From: a virus
DNA length: 23,551 nt
Direction: 5' to 3' (one strand)
IMG/VR virus record: IMGVR_UViG_3300014911_000031
Span: 1-23,551 of that record
In this document: positions 3,588-23,551 of the stretch, piece after piece
Position numbering within the stretch: the stretch's first letter is position 1
Layout: the number at the start of each line of letters is the position of its first letter
Notes under the pieces: model-generated
What the model was told of the DNA's origin: nothing
What the model saw: the letters and a program-made list of their open reading frames with translations, nothing else
The model's database searches: none
Position numbers and translations under genes: made by a program

Positions 3588-3824
3588 CAGCTTCCCGTCT
3601 TTTACTTCTGACCTTTTATGGACTAAAACTCCTTTTCCGCAGTATCTACAAGAATACGGGTAAAGACCCGTGTCTTTTTCTTTTTTTCCAGCAGGGACAA
3701 AATAATGATTACAAGTAGCTGTGTTTCTTTCCAGCGTTGGTTTCACAACTATATACCTGTTTCCGTCATTGTCTATCCCGCTTTCAACAACATTCTTCTT
3801 GTTTTTGAATAGTTTTTCCATCAT
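3573..3824 (-). CDS. Small zinc-ribbon-like protein
   Basis: 83 residues. Cys38, His40, Cys59 and Cys62 (TCNHYF, then YSCRYCGKG) suggest a CxH...CxxC zinc-binding knuckle, with a beta-rich N-terminal strand (DNDGNRYIVVKPT). It is the last gene of the minus-strand block. Its ATG overlaps the stop of the 1194-residue gene (ATGA). A second ATG one codon later is possible. Its 3' end converges with the amidase gene and overlaps it by 15 nt. No family is recognised. Nucleic-acid binding or a small structural role are both possible. Confidence 0.65.
   Translation of the reverse strand: MMEKLFKNKKNVVESGIDNDGNRYIVVKPTLERNTATCNHYFVPAGKKEKDTGLYPYSCRYCGKGVLVHKRSEVKDGKLLIGQ
3654..3690 (+). terminator. 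Intrinsic terminator of the tail-fibre/lysis operon
   Basis: ACGGGT (3656-3661), loop AAAG, ACCCGT (3666-3671). The stem extends by one U-G and one A-U pair to 3654/3673 and is followed by a T-rich run (TCTTTTTCTTTTTTTCC). It is oriented to stop plus-strand transcription about 70 nt after the amidase stop. It lies wholly inside the coding region of the opposing gene 3573-3824. Confidence 0.75.
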
Positions 3825-6800
3825 AGCTTGGTTATTGGTTTAATTTTCTTACTGCTTGGCTTTTTAACAGACCTTTTGTATTTAGCCAAGAATGATGATA
3901 ACTCTTTTTCTGGTGTAGTGGCAACAGCAGGAACAGAAACGCCTTTATATTTTACAGAAATGCGTGGATGTTTAACTACTCGTGGGCGTATTTCTTTCTT
4001 CTTTCCTTTTTTCTCAAGGCGTTTTATCAGCTGTGTGTATTTATCAGCAATTGTAGCCAATATCCTTTCCTGTTTCATTCTGATTTCTGTTTTCTCTTCT
4101 TCTGTAAGAGTTGGGTCTTTAAGCAGTTCTTGGTAGAGGGCATATAGTCTTTCTCCTGTATCTCTAACGACATTAAAATTATTAGTATTCTTTGCTACCA
4201 CAAACAAATCTTTAGCCAAGCTCCACTGCTTGTTTAAGTATTTCAATGCCTCTTCTGGGGTTTGAGCCCTCATCAACCCTACTTGTATATCTGAATAATA
4301 CTTCTTCCACAGCTGAACATAGCTGTCTTTATCATCAGCTTTCTTATAGCGGTAAAGCAAGATATCTTCCTCCTTAATTGGCAGTGTATCTGGTTCTCTG
4401 GCTAAACCGAACTCTTTATTAACTTGGGAGATTGCCTTGCCATAAAGCTTGTCAATCCACTTCATCTGCTGTTCTGGAGTTAGCTTGCTAAAGTTGGGGT
4501 CATTTATCTTCGCTTCTACCAGTTGTTTTATCAGCTCTTTCTTACGCTCTTCATAGCGTTTCTGAATATCTTTAGGCAAGGTTTCAACCAATCCTTTTCC
4601 TTCCTCTTTGCGTAATCTCTCAATGGTCTCATACAGCTCATCTGTTTTCACTCCGCCCTTCTTTCTCATTAGGTCATAAAACAGCGTAAATTTTTTGCCA
4701 AATGGTCTCTTTATCTCCTCGTAGTAGTGCTTGGCTTCTTTGGTAGCTGTTGGACCAAAAGCCACAGCTTTAAACTTCTCCCAAGTAGTAGTTGGGGCAG
4801 GATACATCAGACCTCGTTCTTTCCGTTTTTCTATATCCTCTACAAGAGAGCCTGGATACTTGCCCCCATATTTCAAAACATCTATTCCCTGTAATGTTTT
4901 CTGAATTTGTCTTCCCATTGGAATAAATCCAGCAACATCTCCTGAAAGAGCTTCTCTAATCGCACCAAAGACAGGAGCGGTTTCATAAATACCTGCTCCA
5001 GACTTACCGAAGAACTCTCGTCTGGGAGCAAGCTTAATTGGTCCAAGTCTGCCACCATATTCTGGATACAAACCAACCAAGAAGCCACCATAGGGATTGT
5101 TAGCTAACACTTCACCAACAATCCTGCCAATAGCCTTCTGTATTCCCTCGTTTTTGTCCTCTGCCTTCTGATATTCCTCTATTGCGTCTTGGAAGGCTTT
5201 AATGGGGTCAATGTTGGTGCGGTAGCCAACGGTTTTCTCAAAAAAGTTGCCAAACAGATATATTGTTCCAAGTGCTTTCATTAAGTCCCAAGCGTGCTGG
5301 GGCTTCATTCCCACATCGTATAAGAGATAGTTAAAGTTGTTGGTCACCTCCAGCATAAATTGTCCAAAAGTGCTACCAAGAGTGCTTTCAAACATATGGG
5401 CTCTTGTGCCCAACCCCCTGTATCCCATAATCCTGCCAGCGGCAATATCAGCCAGCTTGGTTGCTTTCTCTTTAGGAACACCCCTTTGAAGCAAGGCAAA
5501 GTATTCTGTCTTCCACGCTGTTCTGGCAGTAATGCTCTCCAAAAACTCCAAGAGTGCCATTCCCCCCTTCTTAAGCAAAAAAGAAGAGGTTATCTTTCTT
5601 GGGGGCAACTCCATATATCTGCCCTTGAGAAAACTGGCTTCCTTTAGTGCCCAATCTGATTTAGCAGGCAAATGGATAAGGGTATCCAGAAAAGCACGGG
5701 TAAAATGGTAGGGGGAACGGGCAAAAGAAATAGGAAGTTGGGAAGTCTGGGCTAATGCTGAAGATAGCCTTCCAAATACCGTTCCCATACCATAAGCACT
5801 CCTGGCTTGTTTCAGAAACCTAACGCCAGTTGGGAAATATTCTTGTATGCTCTTCTCTGCCAAAACATTAGCCCGAACAGGATTGCCAGCCAAGAGGTTG
5901 GCTTGGGCTTTAGCATAACGGATTAAAGAGCCAAGCGGTCTTCCTGTTTCCTCTTGTAATCTCTCAAGCATTCTGGTGAAAGCTCGCCAGCGTTCTACAT
6001 AAGGAATAGTATGCTTATGGGATACTGCTTGGTTAATAAAATCTCTATATGCTTCTAGAGCATCTGTCGGTTGAAAGCCAGCTACTCTTCTTTTAACAAT
6101 TCCAGCAGTTGGTTTAGCTATTCCCCCAACCTCGTGAGCTACACCCACACTTTCACCGAAAGAACCAAGCCTAAAAAGACCAAAGGGGGCTTCTCCTATC
6201 TGGTGCATATAGTTAGGGAGCTTGTTGATTGGTTTGAGCCCATATCTTTTTCTTATCTCATTTAGGCTTCTCCACCATTCGTTGTATTGCTTCCTTAACC
6301 ACTTGGTTGCTTGCTCAATTCTTTCTGCCCCTTCTTTACCCCACTTCTTTACTAATTCTTCTTTGGTTATTTGTTTTGAGCCCAAAGCGTGAATATCCTG
6401 CCTCATTGCTCTGTTTAAGCCAGAGAAAATTCTTTTAACTGCTGAAGATTGAACCAATCTATTAGCTTCACTTTTAATTGTCTTATCTAAAGTTCTGGGA
6501 TAGAGCCAGCGGTGAAGAGTAAGATTGGCTCTTTCGCCAAAGGTTAGGTTCTTGCCACCCTTCTTTAAGATATCTATAAAGTTGCTTCCTGTAATGCGGT
6601 CTATAAAACGGGAGGGGGTTAGGGTAGTAGAGGGATAGAACCCCAATCCTTTAGCTCTCTCGCCCACTGCTCCTAACGCTTCTTTTACTGAAGCTGGTAT
6701 CTTCTCCCCTTTCATCTTGACATCTTCTATTGTCTTGGGGATTGTTGGTTTAATATATTTTGCCTTCACTCCGTGAAGAGCTTTGGTAAGTTCTTGGGGG

Positions 6801-7405
6801 GTTGGCTCTCTATACTTTTGGGCAAATGTTTCCATCAAATAAGTCCTGATTTTCTCTGGTTCTCTTAATTTAGCTATGTCTTTGGCAACCAAAGAACCTT
6901 CAGGAACTTTTACTTTTATTTCTCGCAAATGCTTAACAACTTCCTGTGGTGTTTTTGTCTTAGCAAGACGACTAAGTAAATTACTACTTAATCTTCTACC
7001 AAACTCCAACCCACCAGCAAAACTGCCAACTCCAACAAGCAAATCCATCTGCTTTTTCCTCGCCAATTCTTCTAAATTACTTTTGTGTGAGATTATCTCT
7101 GATGGTTTGGCAAGCAAAATGCTTCCTAATAGTGGAGTATGTGGAGTAATCTTTCTTGGTCTGCGGAGGTATTCAGATGTTATTCTCCTTGCCTCTGGAG
7201 CTAAACTTCTCTCTTTTTTGTATTCTTCAATCTCTCTTTGTATTGGAGAAACAACAAATCTCTGGAGATTACGCCTTGATAATTCCCTGTTCCTTCTTTC
7301 TAAATCCAGATACCTTCTCCAGACACCAGAGATATCACTGCCAAACCTACCTAATCCAGGCTGACCTATTCCGAAGTATGATTTGAATTTTTCCCAAATA
7401 GCCAT
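3821..7405 (-). CDS. Very large internal virion / DNA-ejection protein (predicted)
   Basis: 1194 residues, basic and largely alpha-helical, and the longest gene in the window. It has Gly/Ala-rich helices (for example LLVGVGSFAGGLEFGRRLSS near 122-141), a central motif LPNYMHQI near residue 398 and long Lys/Glu-rich helices in the last 350 residues. Its size, helical make-up and position at the distal end of the morphogenesis operon, after the connector and tail proteins, match internal proteins that podoviruses eject with their DNA. The NYxxH-type motif also occurs in such large internal proteins, as far as I remember. No lytic transglycosylase Glu motif or protease motif was found. A tape-measure protein is an alternative but fits less well, because no tail-tube genes are present. 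ATG 7405 lacks a clear Shine-Dalgarno. Confidence 0.55.
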   Translation of the reverse strand: MAIWEKFKSYFGIGQPGLGRFGSDISGVWRRYLDLERRNRELSRRNLQRFVVSPIQREIEEYKKERSLAPEARRITSEYLRRPRKITPHTPLLGSILLAKPSEIISHKSNLEELARKKQMDLLVGVGSFAGGLEFGRRLSSNLLSRLAKTKTPQEVVKHLREIKVKVPEGSLVAKDIAKLREPEKIRTYLMETFAQKYREPTPQELTKALHGVKAKYIKPTIPKTIEDVKMKGEKIPASVKEALGAVGERAKGLGFYPSTTLTPSRFIDRITGSNFIDILKKGGKNLTFGERANLTLHRWLYPRTLDKTIKSEANRLVQSSAVKRIFSGLNRAMRQDIHALGSKQITKEELVKKWGKEGAERIEQATKWLRKQYNEWWRSLNEIRKRYGLKPINKLPNYMHQIGEAPFGLFRLGSFGESVGVAHEVGGIAKPTAGIVKRRVAGFQPTDALEAYRDFINQAVSHKHTIPYVERWRAFTRMLERLQEETGRPLGSLIRYAKAQANLLAGNPVRANVLAEKSIQEYFPTGVRFLKQARSAYGMGTVFGRLSSALAQTSQLPISFARSPYHFTRAFLDTLIHLPAKSDWALKEASFLKGRYMELPPRKITSSFLLKKGGMALLEFLESITARTAWKTEYFALLQRGVPKEKATKLADIAAGRIMGYRGLGTRAHMFESTLGSTFGQFMLEVTNNFNYLLYDVGMKPQHAWDLMKALGTIYLFGNFFEKTVGYRTNIDPIKAFQDAIEEYQKAEDKNEGIQKAIGRIVGEVLANNPYGGFLVGLYPEYGGRLGPIKLAPRREFFGKSGAGIYETAPVFGAIREALSGDVAGFIPMGRQIQKTLQGIDVLKYGGKYPGSLVEDIEKRKERGLMYPAPTTTWEKFKAVAFGPTATKEAKHYYEEIKRPFGKKFTLFYDLMRKKGGVKTDELYETIERLRKEEGKGLVETLPKDIQKRYEERKKELIKQLVEAKINDPNFSKLTPEQQMKWIDKLYGKAISQVNKEFGLAREPDTLPIKEEDILLYRYKKADDKDSYVQLWKKYYSDIQVGLMRAQTPEEALKYLNKQWSLAKDLFVVAKNTNNFNVVRDTGERLYALYQELLKDPTLTEEEKTEIRMKQERILATIADKYTQLIKRLEKKGKKKEIRPRVVKHPRISVKYKGVSVPAVATTPEKELSSFLAKYKRSVKKPSSKKIKPITKL

Positions 7406-11607: not shown

Positions 11608-12591
11608 TTATTGTTCAACCCATTTAGAAATAGATATCGGATTACCATTAGCATCATAGGTTAATGTTTTGCGATAGGTTTTTCCATTTAATTCTGCTTC
11701 TAAATAATCAACATCTTGGTTATCATTGTAATGTATTGTCAGGTCTTGCTCGTCTAGCTGCATTGAAAGTGAATGCTCAAACGAACTTTTAAAGTTAGGA
11801 ACTGGAAACTGAAGGTTCTTAATGGTCGTTTCCAACTTTCCCAACCCCTTAATAATCGGGGAAACATCTGTCTCTGGAAACGAAAGAGATTTTATATCTT
11901 TGCTTAATTGTGTAATTTTTTTCTCCAATTCGTCAAGATTGGAAACTCTTATTGTTTTGGGATATTTTTGTCCCCCCACCTGTTTGTTTATCTTTTCCAA
12001 TACTCCCAACACTGCTGAAAGCAGTTTAATTGTATCTTTTGCCTGCCCAACAATTGTTTTTAGCTCTTCTTGTTGTTTTTTGGTAATAACACCCTCTTTT
12101 TCTATTGTTTCAACTAATGATTGCGAATGCTTATCTATTCTCTTTGCCGAAGACGCCAACAGCTTTATCTGTTCTAAAGCCTTCTGGGTATTTTTATCTT
12201 TAACGCTAAATGTGGTGTTCTTTATGCCAGAAATAGCCTTATTTAGGGATTTAACTTTTTTTGCCAAACCAGAAAAACCAGTCTTACCGCTATCCCCAAC
12301 CAAAGCCATAGCCTTCTCAACAGAAACGATTGCTTCCCTTACCCTCGCAAGCTCATTTTTGACATCTTTGTCCTTTACCCTAAAAATTGTTCTGGAAAAT
12401 CCAGTCAGGGCTTCTTTTAGTATAATTGTCAGGGAATTCAAAAATGCTTCCCTTTTTTGGGAAGAAAATGTCTTTTTTAGCCACTTAAAAAGAGAGGAAA
12501 GGGTAGCAACAGATATAGTCTGAACCTTCTCCTGATAAACCCTGTTTTCCCTGTTTTGTTTTTCTTTTAATAAATCAGAAAGAGACTTCAT
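11608..12591 (-). CDS. Coiled-coil structural protein with internal repeats
   Basis: 327 residues, helical from 1 to about 250, then a small beta domain (QLDEQDLTIHYNDNQDVDYLEAELNGKTYRKTLTYDANGNPISISKWVEQ). Two related segments, IFRVKDKDVKNELARVREAI near 69-88 and TFSVKDKNTQKALEQIKLLA near 131-150, indicate an internal duplication. A third weaker helix pair follows. It lies between the sugar-modification cassette and the adaptor gene. The C-terminal domain resembles small domains in phage neck or tail proteins, so a neck whisker or tail component is plausible. A promoter is predicted immediately upstream, with the ATG only 8 nt after the -10 box. Confidence 0.6.
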   Translation of the reverse strand: MKSLSDLLKEKQNRENRVYQEKVQTISVATLSSLFKWLKKTFSSQKREAFLNSLTIILKEALTGFSRTIFRVKDKDVKNELARVREAIVSVEKAMALVGDSGKTGFSGLAKKVKSLNKAISGIKNTTFSVKDKNTQKALEQIKLLASSAKRIDKHSQSLVETIEKEGVITKKQQEELKTIVGQAKDTIKLLSAVLGVLEKINKQVGGQKYPKTIRVSNLDELEKKITQLSKDIKSLSFPETDVSPIIKGLGKLETTIKNLQFPVPNFKSSFEHSLSMQLDEQDLTIHYNDNQDVDYLEAELNGKTYRKTLTYDANGNPISISKWVEQ

Positions 12592-12629: not shown

Positions 12630-13361
12630 CTATGTTTGTATTCGCCTTCTAATAGTCCAATGGACATAATCAGGAAACCTTTTGTATAATTCCTCCCTCC
12701 TTTCTGCCTCGTGAGTTTTTATTCCGCTTCTCTTGGTAGTGTGAGCTTTGTGGTAATAAAGAGGCTTGGTGCAATGATAAGAGACATATCCGTGTTTCTC
12801 CATTAGGGCATTAAGATAATCGTCCTCATAACCATAACCAGCCTTACCCCAAATACCATATTCTGGGAACTTGTATTTCCTTATTAAATCCCCCTTAAAC
12901 AAGCCATATTGTGTCCAAGCAATGGCAAAATTGTTTAATACTCTACCAGCACCAACCCACTCTTTATCTGCTTCAGAAATATCTTGCGTTCCGTCCCAAC
13001 GCTCATTGTGAATTCCCAAGCAATAAGCATTTTTTGGCAATTTTACTAATATCTCATAAAGACCGAAAGCAGATTTGGGAATATACAAAATATCGCTGTC
13101 AAGCATTAAGAGATAATCGCCACTAAACCTCTCTATTACCCTATTTCTGGCAACGCAAGCACCCATATTTTTAGGAAGCTGGATAACATTTATCCCTTTT
13201 TGTTTCTTAAGCCACTCTTGTGTGCCATCGGTTGAGCCATTATCAACAACCCAAACCTCAATTGGCTCTTTTTTAAGGCGATTAACACTCTTTCTTACCA
13301 CATCTAATTCATTCCAAGAAAGAACTAAAGCACTGATTTTAGGAACAGCGGTATCTGTCAT
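12630..13361 (-). CDS. GT-A glycosyltransferase, family 2 type
   Basis: 243 residues. The GT2 core can be seen: ALVLSWNELD (11-20), VVDNGSTDGTQEW (38-50, nucleotide-sugar binding Asp), NMGACVARN (65-73) and the DSD metal-binding motif at 88-90 (LMLDSDILY). A later GYGYEDDYLNALM (about 184-196) supplies the expected acidic ED residues of the catalytic base. The enzyme would transfer a sugar from a nucleotide donor; the acceptor cannot be told. The ATG overlaps the upstream methyltransferase stop (ATGA). It is the last gene of a four-gene modification cassette placed among virion genes, so virion or host-envelope glycosylation are both candidates. Confidence 0.85.
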   Translation of the reverse strand: MTDTAVPKISALVLSWNELDVVRKSVNRLKKEPIEVWVVDNGSTDGTQEWLKKQKGINVIQLPKNMGACVARNRVIERFSGDYLLMLDSDILYIPKSAFGLYEILVKLPKNAYCLGIHNERWDGTQDISEADKEWVGAGRVLNNFAIAWTQYGLFKGDLIRKYKFPEYGIWGKAGYGYEDDYLNALMEKHGYVSYHCTKPLYYHKAHTTKRSGIKTHEAERREELYKRFPDYVHWTIRRRIQT

Positions 13362-14008
13362 ATTTTCTTTAAAACTAAAAACCAGCCCTGTCTTTTTGCC
13401 ATATAGGATATTTTTAATCCTGCTTCTTTTATTAAATCAACGAGTTCCCAAAAGTAATAGTGGTGATGATGACCATCTTTCCATTTATATTTCTTTACCA
13501 CTGGTATTTGCCTCCAGTTAATCTCCTCTGTCCATAAACCCCTCTTTTCTGGGGGGTCAAGTTCTCTCATCGGCACAGAAAGAATAAGGCGTCCCCCTCT
13601 TTTTAGTTTGGCTACCAGTTTTTTAAGGGTGGGTAGGGGGTTGCTACAAAAATGCTCCATAACCTCTGATAAAATAATCAAATCAAACTTCTCCTTGTAA
13701 GGAACAGGGTCTGTTTCTATATTCGCCTTTTTAAAAGGAACTCCATATTTGCGGAATAGCTTTTGTGAGTGAAGCTTTGGCAGAATATCAATAGTTTTCA
13801 CCAAAAACCCGTTTCTGGTAAGCAATAGGGATAAACAGCCATAAGCACAGCCAACCTCTAAAGTATTCTTTGGTTTTAGTTTTTTAACCAACTCCAAAAT
13901 AAAGTTGTAATCAACACTACGCATAGTGTCATAGCGATAAAAATTCCTGTCAGCGTCCCCTGCCTGTTTAATCTCTGAAACAATGTCTTTGGCTAAAATC
14001 TTGCTCAT
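13358..14008 (-). CDS. SAM-dependent methyltransferase, class I
   Basis: 216 residues from the ATG at 14008, chosen because it follows the upstream stop by 1 nt (TAATATG). A start at 14074 would overlap the previous gene by 65 nt and add residues outside the fold. Motif I (LEVGCAYGCLS, residues 50-60) binds SAM. An acidic residue closes strand 2 (KTIDILP, about 71-77), and FDLIILSEVMEHF is motif IV-like and typical of UbiG/Methyltransf_11-type small-molecule or sugar methyltransferases. A histidine-rich stretch (KDGHHHHYYFWE) near residue 178 may contribute to the active site. No DNA-methylase DPPY motif is present, so DNA modification is unlikely. A methylated sugar or glycan is the best-supported product because its neighbours are glycosyltransferases. 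Confidence 0.8.
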   Translation of the reverse strand: MSKILAKDIVSEIKQAGDADRNFYRYDTMRSVDYNFILELVKKLKPKNTLEVGCAYGCLSLLLTRNGFLVKTIDILPKLHSQKLFRKYGVPFKKANIETDPVPYKEKFDLIILSEVMEHFCSNPLPTLKKLVAKLKRGGRLILSVPMRELDPPEKRGLWTEEINWRQIPVVKKYKWKDGHHHHYYFWELVDLIKEAGLKISYMAKRQGWFLVLKKI

Positions 14009-14009
14009 A

Positions 14010-15065
14010 TTAAGACTTAAATTCCTTTTGCCAATCTTTAGCCACTTTTTTCCAATCAAACCTCTCTCTGGCATCTGCCATCATCTCTTCCCTATATTTA
14101 TTCTGATATCTGGGGTTAAGAGCCTTAATCACTAAATCAGCAAACATATCAAAAACCTTCTCTGGTATTTCTCTGTTTGGGAAGTGGTCATAAGACCAGT
14201 TGGTTGTTAGTCCCCAGCGAGTTGTTTCTGCTACTGCGGCAGTAGGAATAACAACAGGGATAGCCCCGCCAACTTGAGCTTTCATTGAGGAAATACAGCT
14301 AATCTCTGGCCAGTGTGTCGGGTATGCCCAAACACCAGAAGAAAGTATCTGTTTTGCCAATTCAATATGCCCAACCCTGCCGTGATGATATACTCCTTCT
14401 TGAGAAAACAGATTTTCCAAATACTCTTTATAAACCTTAAATGTCTTTTTATCCAAAATCTTTTTCATTGTCTGCCAACCATAAAATATATGGAGTTCAG
14501 CCTCTGGTTCAGCTAACTTGATAGTAGTCCAAGTTTCCAATAGCTCTTTTAAGCCCCTATCATAGGAAGACATATAAATAATTTTTTTGGGGTTTCTTTT
14601 AACTTTCTGGTTAAATTGGGATATATCAACCCCATTCTGGGTTATAAACATCTTTTCATTGGGGATATTGGGATAGAGGCTACGATGATAAAGAGAGAGA
14701 ACCATAATCTTATCAACCAGATAAACAACAGGTAATATCTCCGCCTCTGGGGTTGTGTCGTGAAGCCAGATATATTGCTTTTTGGCTCTCGCTGATTTTA
14801 TTAAATCAATATATTTATCTCCGCCACGCCAAAAAATCAAAATATCACACTTATCATTCTTGTATTTCTTGTAATCACGATACTCAACCCCATCATAACT
14901 ACCGCAATCTTTATCGCAACGATTATACACCACAACCTCATTGCCAAGAGAGGATAGGTTTTTAGCCATCTGGATAGTGGCTTCCTCTGAACCACCTATA
15001 CCAGTAGCCACAGATTTTGGCGACCAGCTTTCAATTGATTTGCCAATATAAAAAATAATCTTCAT
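14010..15065 (-). CDS. GT-B glycosyltransferase, family 4/1 type
   Basis: 351 residues with two Rossmann-like halves. The N-terminal half has the GGSEEA loop (24-29), which is typical of GT4 enzymes that bind the acceptor there, and an IWLHDTTP strand (99-106). The C-terminal half starts after FITQNGVDISQF (140-151) and has SSYDRGLKELLETW (166-179). The donor motif EISCISSMKAQVGG starts at Glu254. In the usual EX7E pattern the second acidic residue is replaced by Lys262, which may mark altered donor binding. The stop lies 1 nt before the methyltransferase ATG, and the start overlaps the upstream GT gene by 4 nt. Confidence 0.82.
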   Translation of the reverse strand: MKIIFYIGKSIESWSPKSVATGIGGSEEATIQMAKNLSSLGNEVVVYNRCDKDCGSYDGVEYRDYKKYKNDKCDILIFWRGGDKYIDLIKSARAKKQYIWLHDTTPEAEILPVVYLVDKIMVLSLYHRSLYPNIPNEKMFITQNGVDISQFNQKVKRNPKKIIYMSSYDRGLKELLETWTTIKLAEPEAELHIFYGWQTMKKILDKKTFKVYKEYLENLFSQEGVYHHGRVGHIELAKQILSSGVWAYPTHWPEISCISSMKAQVGGAIPVVIPTAAVAETTRWGLTTNWSYDHFPNREIPEKVFDMFADLVIKALNPRYQNKYREEMMADARERFDWKKVAKDWQKEFKS

Positions 15066-15781
15066 TTGTAGGGCTGGGTTATTTTCTCATTACCTTTTAT
15101 GGTGTGTTGCGTTTTGTATTTATGAGACGAGAGAACCAAAACAAACCTTTCTATGCGTAGATGTTTGGCAACCATTCCTTTAACTTGGGCAATCTTCATT
15201 TTGTTTTTCCTTGCTTGTAAAAAGAAATAGACATCTTCACCGCCACCAGAAGGATTAGGAAATTCTCCTGTAAAGGAAACTTTACCTTTTTTGTCCCTAA
15301 CAAAACTCTTTGACATTTCCTTGAACCAGGGCTTCTCCATTTTTTCAAAAACCTCTCTTTTAACCAAAGTGCAACCAAGACCAGCCCAAACAACTGGCTT
15401 TCCCTCCCAATCTTCGCCAGGAAGCCAATTGTCATAACAGGCAGTTCCCATATTTGCCCACTTGCCCTTGTGGTGGTGCATTGGGTAATCAATGAAGGCT
15501 ATATCAGCGTCAAGTTTAAGCATTTCCTCCAATCCACCATCTGGGATAACCACATCATCATCAACCAAGAGAAAGTGGGTAAAATAAGCTGGGTGCTTTA
15601 AGGCATCTTCCACCAAAGCATTGCGACAATCAGGAATAGGCAAATCTTTAGTGGTAAGAATAACAGGATATTGGTTGCATCTGGCATTCTCAACTAAAAT
15701 TGAATTAAGCGTTTCGGTAAAAATTAAACCCCTTGTAGGAACAAGAGTGCCAATTCTAATTTCTTTTTTTTGTTTAGGCAT
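15062..15781 (-). CDS. GT-A type glycosyltransferase
   Basis: 239 residues. It shows a GT-A core of the type found in phages and in polymer-building GT enzymes: RIGTLVPTRGLIFTETL (9-25), DCRNALVEDAL (51-61), LLVDDDVVIP (71-80, DxD metal motif) and VWAGLGCTLVKREVF (131-145). SGGGEDVYFFLQA (178-190) carries the likely catalytic Glu182-Asp183. The C-terminal tail is Lys/His-rich and not conserved-looking. It overlaps both neighbours (4 nt downstream, 8 nt upstream), so it belongs to the same transcription unit as the other two GT genes and the methyltransferase. Substrate unknown. Confidence 0.8.
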   Translation of the reverse strand: MPKQKKEIRIGTLVPTRGLIFTETLNSILVENARCNQYPVILTTKDLPIPDCRNALVEDALKHPAYFTHFLLVDDDVVIPDGGLEEMLKLDADIAFIDYPMHHHKGKWANMGTACYDNWLPGEDWEGKPVVWAGLGCTLVKREVFEKMEKPWFKEMSKSFVRDKKGKVSFTGEFPNPSGGGEDVYFFLQARKNKMKIAQVKGMVAKHLRIERFVLVLSSHKYKTQHTIKGNEKITQPYK

Positions 15782-16962: not shown

Positions 16963-16978
16963 TTAGTTTATAAACTAA
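16963..16978. repeat. Perfect 16-bp palindrome before the capsid gene
   Basis: TTAGTTTA followed directly by TAAACTAA, a loop-free two-fold symmetric site 10 nt upstream of the capsid ATG and 14 nt after the scaffold stop. As DNA it suits a dimeric regulator; as RNA it would form only a weak AT stem. Function unknown. Confidence 0.6.
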
Positions 16979-17924: not shown

Positions 17925-18146
17925 CTATTTCTTCTTTTTTCTCCTCGTCCTTCTTCTTTTTCGCACCTTTCTCCAATAAACCTTGCCAGCTACACGCTTT
18001 CCAGCCGCTTTTGAACCATACCTTTTGGCTGCTTTCCTGGCAATTCTGGAAAAACCACCAGTTTTGTAAGTTCTTCCCAATCTTCTAACTGCGGCTCTAC
18101 CTCTTTTTCCTTTTGGTTTTAGCCTTCTTGCTCTTTTTCTTGGCAT
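17925..18146 (-). CDS. Very basic small protein (DNA-condensing candidate)
   Basis: 73 residues, roughly half Arg or Lys, with almost no acidic residues. The start is MPRKRARRLKPKGKRGRAA and the end is a run of Arg/Lys (KVRKRRRTRRKKKK). The central YKTGGFSRIARKAAKRYGSKAAGKRVAGKVYW resembles short basic phage proteins of the procapsid region. It overlaps the next gene by 50 nt in a different frame, so both frames in the overlap must encode basic residues. It may neutralise packaged DNA, like a protamine or internal head protein, or it may bind nucleic acid during packaging. Function is inferred from composition. Confidence 0.6.
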   Translation of the reverse strand: MPRKRARRLKPKGKRGRAAVRRLGRTYKTGGFSRIARKAAKRYGSKAAGKRVAGKVYWRKVRKRRRTRRKKKK

Positions 18147-18309
18147 AAGATTTTTTTAGTTTCCCTCTTTCTCTCTTTGACCTTGCTCCAAAGATATTGT
18201 CATACTTACCGCTGTTAAGCATAGCGTGATAAATCTGGGTGGCTTTGTCTGTGCCATAGGTTTTTACCAAAGAGGCATAAAGTTCTTTTTCTTTTTTAGT
18301 GTAAGGCAT
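18097..18309 (-). CDS. Small basic-tailed protein
   Basis: 70 residues. The N-terminal 42 form a compact helical domain (TKKEKELYASLVKTYGTDKATQIYHAMLNSGKYDNIFG). The C-terminal 28 are nearly all Lys/Arg/Ser (SKKAKTKRKKR at the end). The last 50 nt overlap the start of the following basic gene. Its ATG overlaps the upstream stop by one base (TAATG). Similar small helix-plus-basic-tail proteins occur near phage portal genes, from memory. DNA contact is likely; the exact role is unknown. Confidence 0.6.
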   Translation of the reverse strand: MPYTKKEKELYASLVKTYGTDKATQIYHAMLNSGKYDNIFGARSKRERGKLKKSYAKKKSKKAKTKRKKR

Positions 18310-20695: not shown

Positions 20696-22003
20696 TTAAA
20701 TTGCTATTTTACCATACCCTGTTATAGGGTCTCCGCCCACTAATATGCGTCGTTTTCTCCTCTTTGTCAAGTGTGGCACATCATAATCATAAATAAAATC
20801 ACCTAAAGCGTCCATAGCGTGGTCAAAAGCCTTAACAGGAAGCTCACTTGGATTGCGTTCTGATGTTCTTGCCGAAGGATAAGAATAGTTCTCAAACTCA
20901 AATATGGTGTTGTGGCAATTGTCAGTCACATATAAGCGTGGCTTGCCAGTTATTGGACTTGGTTTTAATCTCTCAATTACTTTCTTTATCTTGGCTTTCA
21001 CATAGTTTTCCCTATCATCACCCTTCTTTGATACCCCCCTACAATAAATGCCATACTGCTCCAGCTCTTTAATCTGTTGAGCCGCCGCACTATCAGCTGT
21101 TCTTCCCCTTATCTCAAGCGTATATTCCTTCTGTTTTATCCTCTCTGCCAATTCTTTAATAGTCAAACCAGCCTCATAAACCTCATCAAAAATAACCATT
21201 GTATCATCTGGCTTAATAGCTATCCATAAAACAGCGGTAGGATTTACCTGACCAAAATCAATAGCTGTATAAATAGTCCATTCTGGGGGTATTGTCTTGA
21301 GTGGCTTGATAACATGCGTATCCCTATCAAACTCTTTATAAACAGCCCCAGCTAAACGCCTAAATTCCGCTAAAAACTCTTGGGCAAAAGTATCCTCGTC
21401 CATCTGTGCCCTTGCTTCCTCAATTTCACTCTTGGGAATATACGGATTGTCGTAGGTAGTGAAATGAAACTTCTCAAACTTATTTGGGTTAGCCTTCTGC
21501 CACAACTCATAAAAATGGTTATATCCTTTAGGCGTGGAAATAAACCAAGCCCAACCCTTACTATCAACAAGCATTGGTCTAACAATCTCAAACCAAATAT
21601 GGGGCTTAATATAGGAATACTCGTCCATTATCACCCCGCTTAAACCAACACCACGCAAAGAGTGCTCTTTATCAGAACCCTTTAAGGCAATGTTTGAACC
21701 ATTAGCCAAATCAACCTCTAAATCAACATGTCTTACTTTTTTAACAATTCCTGGTATTTTCTCCAAAATCCCCAAAAGCGTCTTCCAAGCAACGCTTTTA
21801 GCCTGCCTGTAAGTAGGATAAATAATCCAGTAATCACCAGGTTTTCTCAAAGAAGCAATTACAATCTCATTTAAGGCAAGTAAAGTTTTTCCAAAGCGCC
21901 TCCCACACCTGATAATCTTGTATCTTTTGGGAGACTCAACAATCAACTTTTGGGCTGGGTGCGGAGTGTATAGTTTTATCGTCCTCTGCGAACCAAAGGG
22001 CAT
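20696..22003 (-). CDS. terL: Terminase large subunit (packaging ATPase and nuclease)
   Basis: 435 residues with both terminase domains. ATPase: adenine-side segment YTPHPAQKLIV (12-22), Walker A CGRRFGKT (33-40), Walker B VIMDE (124-128, catalytic Glu128) and coupling motif FISTPKG (154-160). Nuclease (RNase H fold): Asp249 in YTAIDFGQVNP, Asp304 in TADSA and acidic residues in AFDHAMDALGDF (392-403, typical of TerL C-termini). It cuts concatemeric DNA and drives it into the procapsid through the portal. It lies 4 nt after the small subunit gene and 2 nt before the DUF5659-like gene. ATG 22003 has no Shine-Dalgarno, so coupling to the small subunit is likely. Confidence 0.93.
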   Translation of the reverse strand: MPFGSQRTIKLYTPHPAQKLIVESPKRYKIIRCGRRFGKTLLALNEIVIASLRKPGDYWIIYPTYRQAKSVAWKTLLGILEKIPGIVKKVRHVDLEVDLANGSNIALKGSDKEHSLRGVGLSGVIMDEYSYIKPHIWFEIVRPMLVDSKGWAWFISTPKGYNHFYELWQKANPNKFEKFHFTTYDNPYIPKSEIEEARAQMDEDTFAQEFLAEFRRLAGAVYKEFDRDTHVIKPLKTIPPEWTIYTAIDFGQVNPTAVLWIAIKPDDTMVIFDEVYEAGLTIKELAERIKQKEYTLEIRGRTADSAAAQQIKELEQYGIYCRGVSKKGDDRENYVKAKIKKVIERLKPSPITGKPRLYVTDNCHNTIFEFENYSYPSARTSERNPSELPVKAFDHAMDALGDFIYDYDVPHLTKRRKRRILVGGDPITGYGKIAI

Positions 22004-22007
22004 AATG

Positions 22008-22568
22008 TTATTTTAACTTCTCTATCTTTATTTTCTCCTTTTTGTTATTAACGGCAAGGGTAGGCAACTTGCCAACATACTTCTTGCTTCCACCCTCTCT
22101 AACCTCTATTTTTTCCTGAACAATATTCGCTGTCTTTCTCTTATCATCTTTGCCATACTCTCCCCTTGTAACCACAATGGTAGTTCCACCATATTTGCGA
22201 CTAAGCTCTGACGAGCCTATTTCCACCTTAATCCCCAAGCGGTCTAATATCTCAATTGCCGCCTTAATCCTGATATTCTCATTTAAAGAGTCCAAAAGTT
22301 CAACAAGCGTTTGAGCCGCTTTGGTAGAGCCACTCCTTAAAACCTCTAAAGCACCATTTCTAATCCTATTAAGCTCTGCCGCCTGAAACTCTTTATAAGC
22401 CTTGTGTAGTTTCCCTCCTTTTCTAAACCAAACCTTAATAGTAATCTGGCTCTTGCCAACAGCTTCAGCAATCTGCTTATAAGTAGCCCCTTTAAACTTC
22501 ATTTCCAAAGCCTTGTAATGCTCTGGAGTGAGACCATGAAACTTGCTGTGTAGCTTCCCTTTTACCAT
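22008..22568 (-). CDS. terS: Terminase small subunit
   Basis: 186 residues. Residues 14-50 form a helix-turn-helix (PEHYKALEMKFKGATYKQIA, then EAVGKSQITIKVWFRKGG), followed by the helical oligomerisation region (ALEVLRSGSTKAAQTLVELLDSLNENIRIKAAIEILDRLGIK). This layout and its position directly before TerL identify a small terminase subunit, which recognises the packaging site on DNA and loads the large subunit. The C-terminal 60 residues are basic and less ordered. The ATG is only 5 nt after a predicted -10 box, so its mRNA may be leaderless. It is also the first gene after the small RNA terminator. Confidence 0.85.
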   Translation of the reverse strand: MVKGKLHSKFHGLTPEHYKALEMKFKGATYKQIAEAVGKSQITIKVWFRKGGKLHKAYKEFQAAELNRIRNGALEVLRSGSTKAAQTLVELLDSLNENIRIKAAIEILDRLGIKVEIGSSELSRKYGGTTIVVTRGEYGKDDKRKTANIVQEKIEVREGGSKKYVGKLPTLAVNNKKEKIKIEKLK

Positions 22569-22573
22569 TGTTT

Positions 22574-22604
22574 ATATTACTCCACAATAATTAGAAAATG
22601 TCAA
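22574..22604 (-). promoter_or_regulatory. Predicted promoter of the packaging operon, leaderless geometry
   Basis: On the minus strand, TTGACA (complement of 22599-22604), a 19-nt spacer and TAATAT (complement of 22574-22579). The terminase ATG follows after 5 nt, so initiation should fall on or beside the start codon. The -35 begins directly after the T run of the small RNA terminator. Confidence 0.6.
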
Positions 22605-22605
22605 G

Positions 22606-22630
22606 AAAAACCCCCGCCAAAAGACGGGGG
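22606..22630 (-). terminator. Intrinsic terminator of the small RNA / packaging leader
   Basis: On the minus strand, CCCCCGTC, loop TTTT, GGCGGGGG, then TTTTTCTT. This gives an 8-bp stem (seven Watson-Crick pairs and one G-U) with an immediate U-tract, a textbook intrinsic terminator for leftward transcription. Confidence 0.88.
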
Positions 22631-22642
22631 AGAGGGGAAGAT

Positions 22643-22665
22643 GCTCTTGGTGATGCTATACAAGA
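22643..22665. repeat. 23-bp direct repeat, copy 1 (in small RNA)
   Basis: Identical over 23 bases to 23007-23029. Begins GCTCTTGG and ends ATACAAGA. The repeat carries an imperfect dyad with arms TCTTG and CAAGA separated by 11 nt. It lies inside the predicted small RNA. Confidence 0.95.
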
Positions 22666-22681
22666 CTTCTCCTCGATTATT

Positions 22682-22710
22682 ACTATAACACATAATGAAA
22701 ACAATGTCAA
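22682..22710 (-). promoter_or_regulatory. Strong sigma70-type promoter of the small RNA
   Basis: On the minus strand, TTGACA (complement of 22705-22710), an exact 17-nt spacer and TATAGT (complement of 22682-22687, 5 of 6). It is the best promoter match in the window. Initiation would fall near 22675. Its -35 is 12 nt from the -35 of the divergent plus-strand promoter. Confidence 0.8.
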
Positions 22711-22722
22711 GAAATTTTACAC

Positions 22723-22751
22723 TTGACAAAAAAACAACAGGGGTGTAGAGT
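22723..22751 (+). promoter_or_regulatory. Predicted early promoter, leaderless geometry
   Basis: TTGACA (22723-22728), a 17-nt spacer and TAGAGT (22746-22751, 4 of 6). The ATG at 22759 follows after 7 nt. It is back to back with the small-RNA promoter. The TTG of the -35 box should not be taken as the start codon of the following gene. Confidence 0.65.
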
Positions 22752-22758
22752 AAAAAAA

Positions 22759-23007
22759 ATGAAGAAAGATGAAGAAGAACTCGCTCAATTACTCGCCTTT
22801 GCTGGACTTGATTTCCTTGTCAGTTTAGTGGGAGAAATAGAAGAAATAGACGTAGATAAAGACTACTCACTAAAAGAAGCTGGCAAGCTGGAGTCCAGAC
22901 TTTTAAAACTTCTAAACTCAGAAATTAAAGTCCTAAAGAGGGGAAAGAAAAATGTTATTGTCCAATTTAGAACAAGAAAAACTAAACAACAACTATGGCA
23001 GCTGTAG
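22759..23007 (+). CDS. Small protein at the head of the early module
   Basis: 82 residues from the ATG at 22759. An in-frame TTG at 22723 lies inside the -35 box of the promoter and is rejected. The N-terminus is acidic and hydrophobic (MKKDEEELAQLLAFAGLDFLVSLVGEIEEIDVD). The C-terminus is basic (KVLKRGKKNVIVQFRTRKTKQQ). No family is recognised. Its 3' end overlaps the winged-helix gene by 13 nt and stops with TAG at the first base of the 23-bp repeat. This suggests that ribosomes finishing here restart at ATG 22995. Confidence 0.62.
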   Translation: MKKDEEELAQLLAFAGLDFLVSLVGEIEEIDVDKDYSLKEAGKLESRLLKLLNSEIKVLKRGKKNVIVQFRTRKTKQQLWQL

Positions 23008-23551
23008 CTCTTGGTGATGCTATACAAGATTTTTTTGATAAAAGAGGGTTTTCTCCAATTCCAGCCCAAACAAGTAAGCCCAGACTTAATAGTAATGAGC
23101 CAGCTATTCCTTATCCTTCCAGAAAAATAAAGCGAACTATAAAGAGAATAAGGAAGAAGCACAACCTAAACTGGACAGATGTCTTCCTGCTCTATGTATT
23201 AGCCCTAATGGAACGCCGCTATGGTTCAATGAGGGTCTTCCCCTCACAAACATGGCTGGCAAAGATAGTAAAAATCTCCCGCAGGCAAGTAATCAGGATA
23301 ATCAAGAAACTAAGAAAACTGGGGCTAATTATCATAAAAGGTGTCTCAAAGTTCAGAACTCTGCTCTACAGCCTCTCAATCTTCATCTTCCAAAAGCAAA
23401 TGGTAAGGGCAAACAAGCAACAAGAAAAATTTTTTTCAAACAAAAATGTCACACATATACGTAGTAATATAAATATTACTACTAATAATAAAAAAGGAGG
23501 GGTATTTATTAAGAAAAAAATAAAAAAATCTACTAAGGAGGGGATTGAAGA
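22995..23551 (+). CDS. Winged-helix protein, probable replication initiator or regulator (3' end outside window)
   Basis: The frame is open from ATG 22995 to the window end (185 residues visible). An in-frame TAA at 22983 lies just upstream, and ATG 22995 is the first ATG/GTG/TTG after it. It begins MAAVALGDAIQDFFDKRGFS, followed by a basic region (SRKIKRTIKRIRKKHNLNWTD). The HTH core follows: FPSQTWLAKIVKISRRQVIR, then IIKKLRKLGLIIIKG, with a recognition helix near RRQVIRIIKKL and a likely beta-wing after it. Such proteins are common as phage and plasmid replication initiators or helicase loaders; a transcription regulator is the alternative. No Shine-Dalgarno is visible, so initiation probably depends on coupling to the previous gene. 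The mRNA start region is the predicted target of the small RNA. Confidence 0.72.
   Translation, partial: MAAVALGDAIQDFFDKRGFSPIPAQTSKPRLNSNEPAIPYPSRKIKRTIKRIRKKHNLNWTDVFLLYVLALMERRYGSMRVFPSQTWLAKIVKISRRQVIRIIKKLRKLGLIIIKGVSKFRTLLYSLSIFIFQKQMVRANKQQEKFFSNKNVTHIRSNINITTNNKKGGVFIKKKIKKSTKEGIE
23007..23029. repeat. 23-bp direct repeat, copy 2 (inside winged-helix gene)
   Basis: Identical over 23 bases to 22643-22665. It encodes codons 5-12 of the winged-helix gene (ALGDAIQD). Its first base is the last base of the TAG of the preceding gene. A run of seven T follows. Confidence 0.95.

Follow-up and report, generated by a model that had tools for sequence, protein, structure and literature searches.

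CopA of plasmid R1 is an antisense RNA of a plasmid Rep gene, of the same type as RNAII of pMV158, RNAI of pT181 and RNAI of pSK41, and the c4 RNA of phage P1 is a phage antisense RNA that targets early or replication genes through dispersed complementary segments. In pMV158, pT181 and pSK41 a small stem-loop RNA made from a strong promoter limits the synthesis of the initiator, and in pMV158, where a small gene precedes repB in one operon (copG-repB), a 48-nt RNA lies at the start of repB (PMC5703833). The OOP RNA of phage lambda, 77 nt long and self-terminating, has been linked to RNase III decay of the cII-O mRNA and to the silencing of early replication (PMC3349717, PMC12197685), while the CI RNA of P4 acts via dispersed complementary segments on early/replication genes and the IsrK RNA of the prophage Gifsy-1, with a promoter and terminator of its own, pairs over ~30 nt with a nearby mRNA (PMC4825925). 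A literature search found no description of an opposite-strand, self-terminated RNA that carries, as a direct repeat, a copy of an initiator target with which it does not overlap.

The window, i.e., the whole stretch of DNA analysed here, is the incomplete virus contig IMGVR_UViG_3300014911_000031 with a length of 23.5 kb. Its minus strand encodes a P22/SU10-type portal, TerS, TerL and the major capsid protein, a short group of rightward genes stands at the right end, and the divergent control region lies between terS (minus) and orfU-rep (plus) (Table 1). The rep gene overlaps orfU by 13 nt and is truncated by the end of the contig, with at least 185 codons visible; its PHROG matches also include phrog_186 and phrog_270. 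In line with the earlier note, which had taken it for a replication-type winged-helix gene, the product looks like a phage replication initiator. Elsewhere in the window, the virion operon encodes a protein of 1194 aa (3821-7405) that has no confident Pfam or PHROGs match, two tiny overlapping ORFs with very basic (Lys/Arg-rich) products lie between the portal and scaffold-like genes (17925-18309), and a perfect 16-bp palindrome, TTAGTTTATAAACTAA, is located immediately upstream of the major capsid gene (16963-16978).

Table 1. Positions in the window of the genes, signals and predicted RNA elements discussed in the text
Feature	Coordinates	Strand	Description
terS	22008..22568	-	Opens the leftward structural operon; phrog_2538 terminase small subunit, E 2.1e-10
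Putative terS promoter, leaderless	22576..22604	-	TTGACA-17-AGTAAT; starts in the terminator tail
Predicted small RNA, ~69 nt	22606..22674	-	Start inferred via the 36-nt rule from three gene starts
Intrinsic terminator and T tail	22606..22630	-	Stem 22630-22611, 8 pairs (7 GC), tail TTTTTCTTGA
5' stem-loop	22632..22674	-	11-nt loop 22650-22660 (UAUAGCAUCAC) complementary to the rep target
Antisense segment	22643..22672	-	23 nt exact plus 7 A-U/G-U pairs
Small-RNA promoter	22682..22710	-	TTGACA-17-TATAGT, extended -10 (TGT), 11/12 consensus positions
Divergent orfU-rep promoter	22723..22751	+	TTGACA-17-TAGAGT, 10/12; TTGACA 36 nt before ATG 22759
orfU	22759..23007	+	82 aa; no known family; mRNA probably leaderless
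rep, winged-helix, replication-initiator-like	22995..23551	+	HTH_36 E 3.3e-8; phrog_345 'replication initiation O-like' E 2.2e-8
Target site in rep mRNA	23007..23036	+	Begins at +13, counted from the A of ATG
TTGACA of four genes	22723, 22604, 12627, 16063		orfU, terS, the gene at 12591 and a fourth gene

The control region contains an exact direct repeat of 23 bases (22643-22665 = 23007-23029, 23/23; alternatively 26 nt at 96%), the copies of which are 364 bp apart. As the earlier note had claimed, the match is exact, and it lies far beyond chance: no direct repeat in the 23.5 kb of the window is longer (runner-up 15 bp), while the longest repeats in 20 first-order Markov windows of equal size measured 13-17 bp. 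No third copy exists in the window, where the next best match (16/23) is at the level of random sequence. The downstream copy covers codons 5-12 of rep (ORF start 22995), which bears out the proposal that an RNA read leftward across the upstream copy would be complementary to the winged-helix gene at these codons. In 144 direct-repeat tests carried out on both strands of 170 contigs, no other repeat combined a copy that precedes a terminator with a second one where an opposing gene begins.

Gene starts in this phage follow a recurrent pattern. An exact TTGACA stands 36 nt before the ATG of orfU, of terS and of the gene at 12591, and a fourth gene has it at 35 nt; three genes at exactly 36 nt have P ~4e-7 under a simple Poisson model. 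A convincing Shine-Dalgarno sequence was present in only about one-fifth of the 28 genes checked. The phage thus seems to rely on leaderless mRNAs and on starts without an SD, a hint of an unusual host. The statement that rep lacks a Shine-Dalgarno sequence holds; the coupling to the preceding gene that had been deduced from it does not follow, and translational coupling on these grounds was discarded, since SD absence is the norm in this phage.

Both the near-consensus minus-strand promoter and the strong intrinsic terminator described previously for the small-RNA unit are present, the former being the best promoter match across 21500-23551. The 36-nt rule places the first base of the RNA at 22674, exactly where the stem-loop begins. 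An exact 12-bp repeat (minus strand), TTTCTTGACATT, is shared between this promoter (22703-22714) and the terminator tail before terS (22597-22608), which suggests that the two promoters are related. The -35 boxes of the RNA and orfU-rep promoters are divergent and only 12 bp apart (22705-22728), so that polymerases at the two promoters should exclude one another; in such a competition the RNA promoter has the better consensus match (11/12 with an extended -10 vs. 10/12). At the gathering score no Rfam family matched the small RNA, and below threshold there were weak matches only (Hrs1, wrong strand, E 0.03).

The predicted RNA folds into two hairpins (-28.7 kcal/mol) with a stem that begins at nucleotide 1, and folding z-scores were -3.4 for the whole RNA (72-nt version) and -2.4 for the 5' hairpin alone. 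The loop and the upper stem of this hairpin (UCUUG/CAAGA) lie within the repeat and the lower stem (GAGG.GAAG/CUUC.CCUC) outside it. When the repeat core was kept fixed, equally stable hairpins arose in 177 of 5000 cases (3.5%) with random flanks taken from the window and in 1155 of 5000 (23%) with shuffled, composition-matched purine/pyrimidine flanks; the stability of the 5' hairpin is not special in comparison with the latter and is supportive, not decisive. A TTG leader peptide inside the small RNA (GAGGAG-AAGTC-TTG) was considered and rejected, as its start region is buried in a stem and most genes here are SD-free.

Pairing with the rep mRNA extends past the exact match, as had been pointed out: target bases 23030-23036 are all U and face seven purines of the RNA, which gives 30 consecutive pairs by A-U and G-U pairing. 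The hybrid computation that the earlier note had proposed returned a strong interaction, with -49 to -50 kcal/mol for the 30-bp duplex and a net energy of -23 to -36 kcal/mol once both unfolding costs were paid, compared to -0.3 to -7 for shuffled target sites. Binding was also specific (-49.8 at the target vs. -36.6 at the next best 60-nt stretch, both strands considered and the RNA's own locus excluded). Within the mRNA the target site shows no unusual accessibility (mean unpaired 0.42 vs. 0.47 overall).

A promoter and a terminator of its own, an antisense segment placed in a stem-loop, and strong, specific pairing are best accounted for by a short antisense RNA gene that represses rep and exists as a direct-repeat copy ~330 bp away from its target, a reading that we regard as fairly probable from the sequence. 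The strong leftward promoter would produce an RNA of ~69 nt ending at its own terminator, and its 5' stem-loop would offer the 11-nt loop to the rep mRNA just past the start codon. From the loop contact, pairing could then spread to as many as 30 bp, beginning at +13 of rep, in a duplex that would be situated at the edge of the footprint of the initiating ribosome and would make a good double-strand substrate. Duplexes near a start codon block 30S binding and attract RNase III, and the one predicted here should stop the translation of rep and/or draw cleavage of the RNase III type. The RNA would be made by every genome copy from a promoter that overlaps the divergent orfU-rep promoter, the unit should act as a dosage-dependent brake on early replication, and a rising number of genomes should let the RNA turn off Rep synthesis. 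The repeat, the promoter, the terminator and the computed fold and pairing are features of the sequence, from which we infer transcription, repression, an effect on copy number and its timing.

Tentatively, and with clearly less confidence than in the repression of rep as such, the locus may be a phage copy-control module in which the antisense RNA gene is displaced as a direct-repeat copy, makes contact through a kissing loop and has a promoter competing with that of the initiator, so that each new genome would out-compete and silence rep. If true, a phage would use plasmid-style RNA control of its replication initiator through an RNA physically apart from its target, as a simple means to time the end of initiator-dependent replication. 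Such an arrangement would also stand midway between cis-antisense RNAs and small RNAs acting in trans, and would illustrate concretely how one may become the other.

Compared with the described systems, the layout is probably a variant of known antisense control that would work like OOP and the plasmid Rep RNAs, which overlap their targets. In common with OOP it has a short, self-terminating RNA unit beside replication genes, encoded on the opposite strand under a promoter of its own (PMC3349717, PMC12197685). OOP, however, overlaps the end of cII and is antisense by position, whereas the predicted RNA and its target do not overlap, the complementarity comes from a direct repeat, and the site is at the start of the initiator gene. 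As in plasmid Rep control (the copG-repB-RNAII arrangement of pMV158), a strong antisense promoter is combined with a weaker initiator promoter (PMC5703833), and the target is an initiator-like gene, although truncated here and assigned by its phrog_345 match. Plasmid Rep RNAs are counter-transcribed inside their target, in contrast to an RNA gene located ~330 bp upstream that retains a copy of the target. The P4 CI and P1 c4 RNAs are processed from the target's own strand and rely on inverted repeats, unlike this separate opposite-strand unit with its direct repeat. IsrK is similar in its own promoter and terminator and in a pairing of ~30 nt with a nearby mRNA; it differs in that the partner is its own read-through mRNA and translation is switched on (PMC4825925). 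Considered as a cis-antisense RNA, the unit has the opposite strand, its own promoter and terminator (as sequence signals only) and long perfect complementarity (23 nt exact, 30 consecutive pairs), but no genomic overlap with the orfU-rep mRNA, which would begin at ~22759. Considered as a trans-encoded RNA of the Hfq type, for which short and imperfect pairing would be expected, it pairs over too long and too perfect a stretch.

The earlier note had seen in the locus the expected picture of a selected RNA-RNA pairing; a duplicated DNA-binding site fits it too. The main rival is a pair of operators or initiator sites, with a phage repressor or Rep itself binding TCTTG-N11-CAAGA both within rep and at +10 of the leftward promoter and possibly looping the 364 bp between, comparable to lac O1/O2. 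The repeat does contain this imperfect dyad (5-11-5), one copy overlaps the start of the leftward transcript, and repressor and iteron sites are often repeated; nevertheless, we consider such a pair unlikely. All 23 positions are identical between the copies, including the asymmetric, non-palindromic 11-nt centre, and such identity is needed for base pairing but not for a dyad operator. The half-sites are 16 bp apart and so on opposite faces of the helix, there are two copies only, and a degenerate operator family was searched for and dismissed because the 23.5 kb held no further copies. Moreover, DNA sites would leave the adjacent terminator, the outer stem that is not part of the repeat and the seven extra G-U/A-U pairs unexplained.

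Less credible still is an attenuated leader of the late operon, in which promoter and terminator would form a late switch, comparable to a put-like RNA element or to pR'-tR' of lambda with Q, and complementarity to rep would be secondary or meaningless. The unit and terS share a strand, with the unit immediately upstream, and a hairpin followed by a terminator is a typical leader arrangement. However, 36 nt before the ATG of terS there is a separate TTGACA, because of which the small RNA is probably a unit separate from terS and not only an attenuated late leader. In the computed fold the terminator also remains intact with the antisense segment blocked, so the rep mRNA cannot be an antiterminator, a candidate that was ruled out on this basis, and the 23-bp identity would be left without explanation. 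The previous suggestion that late-direction transcription shuts off an early gene is not supported: the RNA ends before terS, which apparently has its own promoter in the terminator tail.

We attach slightly lower probability to a chance relic, i.e., a functionless stretch left by a recent ectopic duplication of a short segment from the start of rep. Conservation was not seen in any relative, none having been found with this region; against this stands a copy that, within a compact phage genome, landed exactly between a promoter and a terminator and in a hairpin loop, in a coincidental layout that is absent for every other repeat in the 170 contigs. Packaging sites of the pac type or origin sites, recognised as DNA, often lie between terS and the initiator gene, as the repeat does, yet they are very improbable here given two copies only, 364 bp apart, and the absence of the clustered repeats usual for origins and pac sites.

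Relatives of the locus were searched for in IMG/VR with the 23-mer, rep, terS, TerL, MCP, portal and two alignments as queries; in addition, TerL was compared with GTDB genomes, rep, TerL and portal with phages, and rep with plasmids. The 23-mer, rep and terS searches returned no relative with the rep/terS region. Only distant relatives of the structural genes were recovered (best TerL ~43% identical, full-length MCP matches of up to 46%), and none of them had a rep or terS match that would make the region comparable. In the nearest syntenic contigs (L013 and L120), the sequence before terL differs and a comparable repeat pair is absent. Within the virion operon, a block of glycosyltransferase-/methyltransferase-like genes extends from 12630 to 15781, and parts of it match a phage from Manatee Spring (MW202497) as well as several IMG/VR contigs.
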